DNA of 64,000 nt, from assembly GCA_944389195.1 (NCBI GenBank), contig CALXLM010000003.1, forward strand, positions 1-64,000. The letters are read 5' to 3'. The notes beneath the pieces were generated by a model that ran no database searches, was not told the origin of the DNA, and worked only from the letters and a program-made list of their open reading frames with translations. Below are positions 52,943-56,647 of the stretch, one piece after another. Each line of letters begins with the position of its first letter. The stretch's first letter is position 1. The DNA is from an uncultured Opitutales bacterium. GTDB taxonomy: Bacteria; Verrucomicrobiota; Verrucomicrobiia; Opitutales; Intestinicryptomonadaceae. The translations under genes and the position numbers were made by a program.

Positions 52943-54046
52943 TTACGCATTTTTAAAGTCAACATAAAAGCCTCCGCCGAGCACGACGGACGGGTCGGAA
53001 TCGTGTATGGCCATAACTTGGCCGCTTGCGATGGCCCTTTGCGGCTTTTCGAATTCCACCCGCGCGCGGTTGCCGGGAAGCGGAGTGAAAAGAACTTTTA
53101 CGAGGCCGTCGCGGTATCGGACGCGGGCGTAAATTTCGCGCGGTTCGGATACCGGTTTGTTTATCCAGTTGATTTCGTCTATTACGGCGTCGCTCCGCCA
53201 CAGCCCCGGCGCTTTTGGCGAATCGAAAGCCACGACAAGCTCGTTTGTCCCAAAATTTTTGGCCACGACGACATAGCGTTTTTTGTCGGCGTTTGACGGC
53301 ACTCCGATGCCTTTGCGCTGGCCTATGGTATAATTGAAAAGGCCGCGGTGTTTGCCGAGGACTTTCCCATTGGTGTCCGTTATGTTCCCCGGCTTTTCCG
53401 GTATGTAGTGGCGGAGGAAATCCTGTATTTTTATTTTTCCGAGGAAACAGATGCCCTGGCTGTCCTTTTTTTCCGAATTGGGAAGGCCGTTTAGGCGGGC
53501 TATTTCCCTAACTTCGCTTTTTAACAGCGCCCCCACCGGAAAAGCCGCCCGCTGAAGTTGGTTTTGGGTTATCATCGAAAGGAAGTACGACTGGTCTTTG
53601 CTCGGGTCGAAGCCCGAAAGCAGGTCTCGGGAACCGTCAGGGTTTTCGCGTATCGAGCAGTAATGCCCCGTCGCCACCCGCGTGAAGCCTCTCGCTTCGG
53701 CATATTCGAGAAATTTCCCGAATTTCATCCGCCTGTTGCACATTACGTCAGGATTGGGCGTGCGCCCGAGCCGGTATCCCTCCACCATGTATTCGACGAT
53801 TTCCCTTCTATATTCTTCGATGAAATCAGCGACTTCGAAATCGGCTCCGAGCATTTCGCAGACTTTGCGGCAGTCGATAATATCTTGGTGCCACGGACAA
53901 TCGCCGAAGGCGTCGGCCCCTTCTTCGTTCATCCATGTCTTCATGTAGGCCGCCGACACGTCTTCGCCCTGCTGCTTGAGGATTGTCAGGGCGACAGAGC
54001 TGTCTATTCCGCCCGAAAGGGCCATCAATGTCTTTTGTTTTTTCAT
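52943..54046 (-). CDS. mnmA: tRNA 2-thiouridylase MnmA
   Basis: 367 residues. PP-loop ALSGGIDSSVA, PNPDVMCNRRMKFGKF with the first Cys, DSQGICFLGK with the second Cys, and the C-terminal GLWRSDAVIDEINWI and EFEKPQRAIASGQ domain. It thiolates U34 of tRNA for Lys, Glu and Gln. Its ATG overlaps the stop of the NifA-like regulator by 4 bases (ATGA), so they form a transcription unit. Confidence 0.95.
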   Translation of the reverse strand: MKKQKTLMALSGGIDSSVALTILKQQGEDVSAAYMKTWMNEEGADAFGDCPWHQDIIDCRKVCEMLGADFEVADFIEEYRREIVEYMVEGYRLGRTPNPDVMCNRRMKFGKFLEYAEARGFTRVATGHYCSIRENPDGSRDLLSGFDPSKDQSYFLSMITQNQLQRAAFPVGALLKSEVREIARLNGLPNSEKKDSQGICFLGKIKIQDFLRHYIPEKPGNITDTNGKVLGKHRGLFNYTIGQRKGIGVPSNADKKRYVVVAKNFGTNELVVAFDSPKAPGLWRSDAVIDEINWINKPVSEPREIYARVRYRDGLVKVLFTPLPGNRARVEFEKPQRAIASGQVMAIHDSDPSVVLGGGFYVDFKNA

Positions 54047-55707
54047 TTCGGGCTTTTGTACCAGGACGTTGTTATGGAATAGCGTTTGATCTTGTAGTTT
54101 ATTACGCGTTCTGTAAGGTTTAGTTTTCTTGCCGCCGCCGCCGCGTTTCCGCGGTTTGCCTTGAGTGCCTCGGTTATAAGCTCGCGTTCGAAGGAGGCCA
54201 CCATCGAATTAAAATCGGCATCTTCGCCATGCGGAGTGGAGCCGTGCGCATATCCGGCGCGGACTGCTGGCGTCAGATTGTAGCCGGATATGGCGGAGTC
54301 GTTTGACGACATTACAGCCCTTTCTATGCAGTTTTCAAGCTCTCTTACGTTGCCCGGCCACGTGTAAATTGTCATCATATTTATTGCGGGGGTCGATATG
54401 CGCTTTATGTTTTTCCCGTATATCTTATTATATTTTTCGAGAAAATGTTCGGCCAAAAGCAGTATGTCGCTTTTCCTGTCCCGGAGGGCTGGGATGTGAA
54501 TGGTGTTTTTTGAAAGCTCGGCGTATAGGCTGCCGTCGAAAGTGTTTTGTTCGAGCATTTTTTCGAGGTCGGCCGACGAGGCGCAAATAAGGCGGGCTTG
54601 CCCATGAACGTCGTTTTTGCCGTTTATTCTTCTAAAATATCCGGTCGAGAGATATTCCGATATGAGCTTTTGCACGGCAGGGGAAGTTTCCGTTATTTCG
54701 TCGAGAAAAACCGTTCCCCGGCTTTCCAAAAGCCCGGCTTTTGCGAAATGCGCGCGGGCGAAAGAATCCTTTTCGAAGCCGAAGATTTCGCCTGCAAGTG
54801 CGTAATCCGGAAGGGCGGCGCAGTTTACAACGCTGAATTTTCCGCCGAAATTTTTGTCAGACTGGCAAATGGCCCTTGCGACAAGTTCCTTGCCCGTTCC
54901 GGATTTTCCCCTTATCAATATGGGGTGCGAATGGCGCGAGAAGCGCGCTATGGAGGCGTACACCATTTGCATTGCCCCGCAGTTGCCCAAAATATCCGGC
55001 GGGCGCATTAGGGTGGAGCTTAATTCGAGTTTCAGGCGGCGGTTTTCGTCGAGAAGCTTGTTTCGCTCTTCATGATGCAAATATATGAGAGCCACGGCGT
55101 CGGCAAGAATGTTCGCCACGGTTTCGAGGAGTACTACGTCCCTGTCAAGATCGGCTTTTTTGGGCAATTTTCGGTCTATGCTCATGGTGCCGATAACCTG
55201 TTCCATATAAATTATCGGCACGCATACAAACGCGATGCCTTTCAGAGATTCTCCGCGCGTCTTCGTTCTGTCGAGAAAATCGGGATTTTTTGAAATGTCT
55301 TTGACCACAACCGATTTGCCGTCGGCGGCCACCCTGCCTGTTATGCCTTCCCCAATCCTGTAAACGCCGCGTTTTATTGATTCGTCGTCCATGCCGTGTG
55401 AGGCTTCGATAAACAGGTAGTCGCCGTCGCGCAGGGTGATTGTGCCGCGCAGAAGTCCCATTTCTCTGTATAAGATGTCGAGCGTTTCGGTTATCAGTTC
55501 GGTGACGTTTCTGCGTTGGGTAACAGCCCGGCTTATTTTATGAAGCACGGACATTTCCAAGTCGTCGTAGGAAACTTCGGAATTTTGTCTTTGCGCTGTT
55601 TCTGCGGGCATAGGGGCGGTATTAATCCACACTTGCGTTTGCGTTTCAACAATATTTTCGACAAAATCCTTGATAGAATTTGCGGTTTCGTTAAGCTTGT
55701 ATCCCAT
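54043..55707 (-). CDS. NifA-architecture AAA+ transcriptional regulator (GAF-AAA-HTH) with degenerate GAFTGA
   Basis: 554 residues if started at the ATG at 55707; other in-frame starts are 55725 and 55611, so the first residues are uncertain. A GAF domain (SVLHKISRAVTQRRN...GRVAADGKSVVV...GTMSIDRKLP) precedes an AAA+ domain with Walker A RGKSGTGKE, FSVVNCAALPD, Walker B GTVFLDEI, and arginine-finger ALRDRKSD, and a Fis-type HTH (NAAAAARKLNLTERVINYKI). The sigma54-contacting loop is DSFARA (54751-54768) instead of GAFTGA, though flanking EIFGFEK is normal. Known bEBPs that lose the loop cannot activate sigma54. Head-to-head with the metallophosphoesterase. Confidence 0.8.
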   Translation of the reverse strand: MGYKLNETANSIKDFVENIVETQTQVWINTAPMPAETAQRQNSEVSYDDLEMSVLHKISRAVTQRRNVTELITETLDILYREMGLLRGTITLRDGDYLFIEASHGMDDESIKRGVYRIGEGITGRVAADGKSVVVKDISKNPDFLDRTKTRGESLKGIAFVCVPIIYMEQVIGTMSIDRKLPKKADLDRDVVLLETVANILADAVALIYLHHEERNKLLDENRRLKLELSSTLMRPPDILGNCGAMQMVYASIARFSRHSHPILIRGKSGTGKELVARAICQSDKNFGGKFSVVNCAALPDYALAGEIFGFEKDSFARAHFAKAGLLESRGTVFLDEITETSPAVQKLISEYLSTGYFRRINGKNDVHGQARLICASSADLEKMLEQNTFDGSLYAELSKNTIHIPALRDRKSDILLLAEHFLEKYNKIYGKNIKRISTPAINMMTIYTWPGNVRELENCIERAVMSSNDSAISGYNLTPAVRAGYAHGSTPHGEDADFNSMVASFERELITEALKANRGNAAAAARKLNLTERVINYKIKRYSITTSWYKSPK

Positions 55708-56647
55708 GTTAAGAAGAAAATTCATTTCGACAGTTGTAGGCGCCGGTCTTGCGGCTCTTTGTGTAAGGGCCGCAGATTCGCACTTTTTGCCCGAAAAAAA
55801 GGCAAACGGCATAAAGATTGGGCAAATACGCATAAACGCCGGGCTTTCAAAGCCGTTAAAATTTTTGCATTTTACTGATTCGCATGTTGTTGAAATCGAC
55901 GGCAGGGATTCCGACCGCCTTGAACTGGCCGAAAAGCGCAAAAAGGCATTTTTTTACGCTCCGAGGTTTTTCCTCAGAACAATGGAATATGCACGCGCCA
56001 ACAAAATGAAAATGCTGTGCACCGGCGACACCATAGATTTTGTCAGCCATAAAAGCCTCGAATTTCTCAAGCAGAACATGGGGGCTGAGGACGTTATATT
56101 CGCCGTCGGAAATCATGAATTCAGCCGCTATGTCGGCAGCAGGCGGGAAAAAGAACATACCGAAGAGGTATGCGCCCTGATACAGTCTTGCATAGGCTAC
56201 GACATATCTTTTGCCTCAAGGCAGATAGGAGGTCTTAACATTATTACGGTTGACAACACTCAATACCAGTTTTCAAGCGGGCAAGTCGAACAGCTCAAGG
56301 CCGAAATAAGAAAGGGGCTTCCCATATTGGTTATGTTCCATATTCCCGTTTACACGGAAAAGTTTTTCAACGAAATAGTCGGCAAAACCAAAAAGCGCTG
56401 TTCGTATTTGGCGGGAGTACCGGACGAAAAACTTGCGCTTAATCCGAACGAAGGCCAGCGCAATTTACACAGGCCCCAAAAAGCCACACTCGAGTTTGCG
56501 GAAATAATAAAGAACGAGCCGCTTGTAAAGGGGATTCTATGCGGCCATGTGCACCACAATATAGCCGATGTTCTTCCGAACGGGGCCCTGATGGTGTCGG
56601 GCGCAATGGGCGCTTCGGGGAATGCTCTCGAGGTTGTGGTCGGCTGA
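55706..56647 (+). CDS. Metallophosphoesterase with Tat-like leader
   Basis: 313 residues from ATG 55706. The start MLRRKFISTVVGAGLAAL looks like a twin-arginine or Sec leader. Motifs of the calcineurin-like family: FTDSHV (D-x-H), CTGDTIDF (GD), VGNHEFSRY (GNHE), FHIPVY (H) and GHVHHN (GHxH). Function unknown; it is likely exported. Its ATG overlaps the ATG of the opposite-strand regulator (CATG at 55705-55708). Confidence 0.82.
   Translation: MLRRKFISTVVGAGLAALCVRAADSHFLPEKKANGIKIGQIRINAGLSKPLKFLHFTDSHVVEIDGRDSDRLELAEKRKKAFFYAPRFFLRTMEYARANKMKMLCTGDTIDFVSHKSLEFLKQNMGAEDVIFAVGNHEFSRYVGSRREKEHTEEVCALIQSCIGYDISFASRQIGGLNIITVDNTQYQFSSGQVEQLKAEIRKGLPILVMFHIPVYTEKFFNEIVGKTKKRCSYLAGVPDEKLALNPNEGQRNLHRPQKATLEFAEIIKNEPLVKGILCGHVHHNIADVLPNGALMVSGAMGASGNALEVVVG

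Follow-up and report, generated by a model that had tools for sequence, protein, structure and literature searches.

A NifA-derived regulator without sigma54 loop 1 and arginine fingers in uncultured Opitutales, with a possible role in modulating the nitrogen regulon of an intact paralogue

Gene and domain organization of the locus

The window, which is the whole 64,000-nucleotide stretch of DNA that was analysed, contains on its minus strand an open frame of 554 amino acids (54043-55707) that encodes a NifA-like regulator, denoted A here; its genome is denoted G000. Translation probably starts at Met33 (coding sequence 54043-55611, minus strand) and not at the ATG at 55707, because residues 1 to 42 are modelled with pLDDT below 50 and appear disordered, because the far ATG overlaps the ATG of a divergent gene, and because of the lengths of the orthologues. 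The divergent gene (55706-56647, plus strand) encodes a metallophosphoesterase, which in most relatives was not found next to A. The two start codons share a single CATG at 55705-55708, and one of them is probably wrong.

Downstream of A on the same strand lies mnmA, the gene for a tRNA 2-thiouridylase (52943-54046), which overlaps the end of A by four bases such that the stop codon of A and the start codon of mnmA form ATGA (54043-54046). The same order and orientation are found in 12 of the 13 readable genomes of the genus, with gaps of up to ~450 bases; in G007, mnmA is convergent with A. In the stretches examined around three full-length broken copies from sister genera, mnmA was not seen. 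Given the overlap and the adjacency in 12/13 genomes, co-transcription of A and mnmA in their own genome is plausible.

An earlier, sequence-only reading of this DNA described A as a protein with GAF, AAA+ and Fis-type helix-turn-helix (HTH) domains, and all of these were recovered above the Pfam cut-offs (GAF, Sigma54_activat, AAA+ lid, and Fis-type HTH; the matches include PF00158, PF25601, and PF02954). On the minus strand, the GAF sensor domain spans residues 66-205 (55093-55512; PF13185/PF01590), and the DNA-binding domain spans residues 504-543 (54079-54198; PF02954). Within the ATPase module, Walker A (GKSGTGK, 54889-54909), Walker B (Asp336-Glu337, 54697-54702), and sensor II (GNVREL with Arg455, 54337-54354) are kept. 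Loop 1, the position of the GAFTGA motif, reads DSFARA (residues 314-319, 54751-54768) straight after EIFGFEK, exactly as had been reported. The structure model of A (mean pLDDT, 80.3; pTM, 0.49), with a well-modelled AAA+ fold, has sigma54 activators as its closest solved folds (1ny6_A; rmsd, 1.3; TM, 0.94 by target), and the nearest full-length solved relative is the Nif-specific regulator 9qq6.

Paralogues of A and their distribution

The assembly of G000 (2.37 Mb, 55 contigs) encodes rpoN (E = 2.1e-58), a gene that the earlier reading had singled out as worth looking for; rpoN matches were obtained in 51 of 54 related genomes, G000 included. A PF00158 search of G000 hit eight places, four of which are full enhancer-binding-type proteins: an NtrC-like paralogue (contig C15) and three NifA-like proteins, namely B (contig C12), which is intact with the loop 1 sequence GSFTGA; A (contig C3), which is broken; and C (contig C48), a second broken copy. 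GSFTGA is counted as a functional loop 1 in the cited work (PMC11999139). The genome of A thus encodes the paralogues B and C as potential partners. The best NCBIfam match of A is TIGR01817, at 320.8 bits and below the cut-off of 528.85, and no full-length NifH match was obtained in G000, where the matches to PF00142 are partial and under the cut-off. The structure model of C (mean pLDDT, 71.4; pTM, 0.44) also matches sigma54 activators; for both A and C, the models support the predicted fold rather than an activity.

A-type proteins occur in 18/18 genomes of the family (16 full length and 2 fragments). B was found in 14 of these 18 genomes, and the other 4 keep the A-type protein. C is present in all 13 readable genomes of the genus (12 full length, with a fragment in G005) and was found in none of the 5 sister-genus genomes. 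These counts leave out G010, an unreadable genome in which not even mnmA gave a candidate; the idea that this genome had lost rpoN together with every enhancer-binding protein was dropped for the same reason. In G004 (97% complete, 20 contigs), neither B nor gltB was found, and A and C are kept, so that A may not need B.

An order-wide scan, which scored at most three candidates per genome, yielded matches at E up to 1e-62 in 48 of 372 genomes, comprising the 18 of the family and 30 outside it, each of the latter with a single match at this limit. Eleven NifA-like proteins from other Opitutales genomes outside the family of A served as the outgroup, and nifH lies in the examined flank of nine of the corresponding genes. 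A further set, D, consists of NifA-like copies from genus g37 of another family, where each of four genomes has a single one (L135-L138). In a tree rooted at the midpoint, B, C, D, and the outgroup are each set apart by a single branch, and the grouping of A with C has a support of 100/98. A is not one clade: L027 lies outside A plus C, and the 16 A rows come together in 0% of 200 bootstrap trees. The three sister-genus proteins classed as A-type are about equally similar to A, B, and C, and may be copies that predate the split.

Loss of motor elements and retention of the ATP site

Loop 1 contacts sigma54, and the arginine fingers act in trans on the ATP of the neighbouring subunit, according to the cited accounts (PMC7175178, PMC7057263). 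An intact loop 1 is present in 14/14 B proteins, 11/11 outgroup proteins, and 1 of 4 D proteins; it is found in none of the 12 C proteins and none of the 16 full-length A-type proteins. No orthologue with a normal GAFTGA came to light in the alignment, and the counter-evidence named in the earlier reading did not appear. Within the genus, the ten ungapped A loops are ten different sequences, and the loop is fully deleted in 2 of 13 proteins; DSFARA is therefore not a motif. In view of this variation, the suggestion of the earlier reading that the sigma54 interface may be altered is not supported. The corresponding functional reading, that DSFARA is a working alternative contact with sigma54, draws on Phe316 and Ala319, which in A of G000 agree with two GAFTGA positions. 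With ten different loops among ten ungapped genus members, two more deleted, and the fingers gone as well, we regard it as very improbable.

The arginine fingers had been listed among the intact motifs together with Walker A and Walker B; the two Walker motifs are indeed present (GKSGTGK and DE), whereas both fingers are lost. The segment of residues 391-397 (54517-54537, minus strand) belongs to a stretch that reads FDGSLYAEL where the conserved form is FREDLYYRL, with Asp391 and Glu397 in place of arginines that are both present in 14/14 B and 11/11 outgroup proteins. The first finger arginine, which we take to be the equivalent of PspF R162, is absent from all 16 A-type proteins and present in all 12 C proteins. 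The second, equivalent to PspF R168 and NtrC1 R299, is the one that touches the gamma phosphate in NtrC1 (PMC7175178); it is found in 5 of 16 A-type and 2 of 12 C proteins. With the sigma54 contact and both fingers lost, A alone would be unable to fire the sigma54 polymerase, and from its sequence, direct sigma54 remodelling by A alone is unlikely.

The Walker A lysine and the sensor II arginine are present in 28/28 broken proteins (A-type plus C). Walker B Asp-Glu is kept in 13 of the 16 A-type proteins (13/13 in the genus and 0/3 in sister genera) and in none of the 12 C proteins; the Walker B glutamate is missing from all four readable broken copies of the sister genera and also from L029. 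K273, N295, D336, E337, and R455 are kept in every A protein of the genus (13/13). A pair of the E337-N295 type constitutes a glutamate switch (PMC7057263), and its retention suggests that the nucleotide state still matters in A. None of the 28 broken proteins has an intact loop 1, and each is also missing one or more hydrolysis elements, but the missing element differs among them.

The complementary lesions raise the reading of a mixed A-C ATPase whose active site is split between the two proteins: A would offer a complete cis pocket (Walker A, switch Asn, and Walker B Glu) without a finger, and C the first finger arginine next to a dead Walker B. Within the genus, A has Glu337 in 13/13 and the first arginine in 0/13 proteins, and C has the glutamate in 0/12 and the first arginine in 12/12; moreover, C occurs in 13/13 genus genomes and 0/5 sister-genus genomes, in which the broken copies lack the Walker B glutamate. 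Torsins offer a described precedent for a fingerless AAA+ protein that takes an arginine from its partner (PMC4999309). However, the contact with the gamma phosphate in NtrC1 is made by the second arginine (PMC7175178), which is kept in only 2/12 C proteins and which weakens C as a full finger donor, and the contrast with the sister genera amounts to one or two evolutionary events. We consider the split site improbable. In a wider reading, the ATPase was divided among all three paralogues after duplication: B would fire sigma54, A would retain a pocket competent for hydrolysis but no finger, and C a finger arginine but no catalysis. A and C would then depend on each other, and on B, to function as a mixed AAA+ ring that controls how strongly the sigma54 regulon responds. 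This appears at least as improbable.

Selection on A by protein part

Conservation was compared by part between A and B. Identity in A is much lower than in B in the loop segment (0.25 versus 0.78), the finger segment (0.46 versus 0.87), and the ATPase core overall (0.46 to 0.55 versus 0.85 to 0.87); it is 0.62 versus 0.71 in the GAF domain and essentially equal in the lid (0.81 versus 0.80) and the HTH (0.76 for both). At the level of sequence, this shows a motor that is relaxed in A and a lid and HTH that are constrained as in B. Within residues 276-405 of A, 10 of 130 positions are invariant, N295, D336, and E337 among them (P = 3e-4 from a simple draw, for a region picked after the data were seen). 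The frame of A is open in 13/13 genus genomes, and the dN/dS ratio is about 0.07 for A and 0.03 for B, each from one informative codon comparison with the nearest relative at synonymous distances near or beyond saturation (dS of 1.8 for A, near saturation). The open frame, the dN/dS ratio of about 0.07, and the consistent absence of GAFTGA (0/16) together indicate that the altered loop of A is more than a chance finding.

The weak conservation of the ATPase core relative to B is what would be expected if A were a decaying gene without function. The open frame in all 13 genus genomes, the lid and HTH conserved like those of B, and the low dN/dS, indicative of purifying selection, make this the least probable of the readings considered. 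Rather, A looks like a living, DNA-binding, and probably ATP-binding regulator, with its sensor, lid, and HTH under selection.

The recognition helix of A is most similar to that of B (likeness of 0.66), compared with NifA (0.37) and the NtrC-like paralogue (0.25). Similarity of the helix says little about which site is bound: the D helix is only 0.32 like that of B, yet a D gene carries the palindrome described below.

A candidate nitrogen regulon

The earlier reading had pointed to -24/-12 promoters near candidate targets as a check, and such promoters, together with a common palindrome, precede nitrogen genes. A -24/-12-like site of the form TGGCAY-N6-TGC lies upstream of gltB in 10/10 genomes with the start region covered (of 13 loci, 12 have a gltB match, and 2 of these end inside gltB). 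The gap upstream of gltB also contains a divergent gene, which is glnN (glutamine synthetase III) in 7 genomes and glnK in 3, as well as ACAAWWTTGT palindromes, two in most genomes, where they lie 31 to 33 bases apart, and one exact copy in some. In three genomes, ACAAWWTTGT occurs 19, 13, and 15 times, versus 3, 2, and 3 times for the reversed control. The sites common between genomes are those at gltB-glnN (3/3), at glnK-amtB (3/3, with the palindrome and -24/-12 layout in all three), and at gdhA in two genomes, one of them, G008, with gdhA identified through a near-identical N-terminus only; in G001, gdhA was not located. Many other ACAAWWTTGT sites lie within genes or are unshared between genomes. 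In G000, the loci L181, L186, and L188 make up the candidate regulon of gltB-glnN, glnK-amtB, and gdhA, all with ACAAWWTTGT, and B comes after gltB.

A first pattern for the -24/-12 sites, TGGCAN6TTGCW, gave 5 sites in G000 versus 8 for the reversed control, which is no enrichment; it missed the real sites, because in most of them the base in front of the final TGC varies, and these were recovered by comparing the gltB upstream regions. A weight matrix was then trained on the gltB sites. The high scores that it gives gltB, glnN, and glnK are therefore circular, which does not apply to the low scores found at gdhA and upstream of A, B, and C. At gdhA, no -24/-12 site was found by this matrix in two genomes (best scores of 0.7 and -2.4 versus a training minimum of 14.9). 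By eye, gdhA of G000 has a sigma70-like promoter, TTGTAG-17-TATAAT, the first hexamer of which lies inside the palindrome; repression of gdhA would fit this arrangement.

The window itself contains no ACAAWWTTGT palindrome and no -24/-12 site anywhere, so A is not visibly part of the regulon. In G009 (L130, 620-830), two palindromes lie directly upstream of B, as does a -24/-12 site in divergent orientation, and gltB, glnN, and P-II were unmatched within the 9 kb examined there. NifA-type TGT-N10-ACA sites were absent from the two nifA-nifH intergenic stretches tested.

Motor loss in the D proteins of genus g37

The loops of the four D proteins read GAFTGA, GSFSGA, GLFAGA, and GAPAGT; GSFSGA may be functional. 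Two of the four lack the first finger. The gene for the GAFTGA copy (G095) has a palindrome upstream and a palindrome with a -24/-12 site beside it. For the other three D genes, neither the palindrome nor a -24/-12 site was seen in the examined stretches, where the gene neighbourhood differs too. As far as sequences go, the D series is suggestive of a second, partial, and graded loss of the motor.

In G095, the palindrome and -24/-12 site (L138, 1240-1470) lie between D and a tRNA-like stretch after alaS. By eye, this site precedes about 90 bases that end in a G+C-rich hairpin and a T run, and the stretch is a candidate sigma54-dependent small RNA.

DISCUSSION

The explanation that we favour, with a probability of about 0.5, is that A is a NifA-derived, non-firing regulator that most likely modulates the nitrogen regulon of B (gltB, glnN, glnK-amtB, and gdhA). 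A would have kept GAF sensing, DNA binding, and probably ATP binding, and would have lost its action on sigma54. B would drive the regulon from the ACAAWWTTGT palindromes and the -24/-12 promoters, and A, which may share the palindrome, could enter mixed rings with B and C without firing itself or could compete with B while bound to DNA; at sigma70-type promoters overlapped by the palindrome, as at gdhA, A would possibly repress. The NtrC-like paralogue could own the palindrome instead of B. The proposal of the sequence-only reading that A acts without sigma54 holds insofar as loop 1 is lost, GAFTGA is present in 0/16 orthologues, and sole remodelling of sigma54 is unlikely, but it overlooked a role within a sigma54 regulon: since rpoN, an intact paralogue, and -24/-12 promoters are all present, regulation without sigma54 may mean modulation of B inside that regulon.

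The main alternative is that A is an independent activator or repressor of the sigma70 type, with its own targets and unconnected to B, like VpsR, HupR, and Caulobacter NtrC. The loss of loop 1 and the fingers fits this reading, as do the absence of the palindrome near A and the retention of A in G004, a genome in which no B came to light; furthermore, NtrC proteins of Caulobacter and Rhodobacter that lack GAFTGA are described as acting at sigma70 promoters (PMC10274813). Conversely, the HTH of A is closer to that of B than to that of the other paralogue, and the common palindrome at gdhA stands at a promoter without -24/-12 elements. On balance, an independent role seems rather unlikely.

Modulation of the regulon of B by A can be set against several known systems. 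NifA (TIGR01817, including the Opitutales copies beside nifH) has the same GAF-AAA+-Fis HTH layout; A differs in the missing loop motif and fingers, in its score below the equivalog cut-off, and in the lack of a full-length NifH match in G000. With functional sigma54 activators, A shares Walker A and B, the fold of the activation domain, and the HTH, but not a GAFTGA-type loop or the fingers. Family members without GAFTGA are well known, according to the cited account (PMC3162934). These NtrC-family regulators (NtrC of Caulobacter and Rhodobacter, VpsR, HupR, TyrR, and DhaR) resemble A in the loss or deletion of loop 1 and, in the cases covered by the cited papers, in having genomes that also encode rpoN and intact enhancer-binding proteins; Caulobacter NtrC also works in nitrogen assimilation, the context proposed for A (PMC10274813, PMC3162934). 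Unlike them, A belongs to the GAF-type NifA lineage, not the receiver type, has lost the fingers too, and is one of three paralogues of which one is intact.

Like the hetero-oligomeric enhancer-binding proteins HrpR/HrpS, VnfA1-A3/AnfA, and FleQ/FleT (PMC9542535, PMC7057263, PMC11999139), A, B, and C are paralogues of a single genome with the potential to share a ring; for A, B, and C, such mixing is putative. HrpR and HrpS keep all motifs, unlike A and C (PMC7057263), and FleT is described as having no DNA-binding domain (PMC11999139), whereas A and C appear to lose the motor and keep DNA binding. Torsins with LAP1/LULL1 are, like A, fingerless AAA+ ATPases that keep their own nucleotide site (PMC4999309), but they are eukaryotic and take their arginine from a donor that lacks a nucleotide site, unlike C with its Walker A; that C or B might donate an arginine is a guess. 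Further related literature includes PMC12316311 and PMC12054792. In the open-access literature, we found no description of a triad of one intact and two broken paralogues. The new part is this triad, in which the two broken paralogues are broken differently; relatives without GAFTGA were already known.

Annotation based on the AAA+ domain labels enhancer-binding proteins as sigma54 activators, and families of the A and C type would be misannotated as a result. The intact B, the broken A and C, the single broken copies of the sister genera, and the partly broken D form a natural series. This series allows one to ask which parts of an AAA+ activator are dispensable while sensing and DNA binding stay under selection, and also whether a sigma54 regulon is tuned by paralogues that do not fire. 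For this uncultured group of Opitutales, a concrete candidate nitrogen regulon is proposed.
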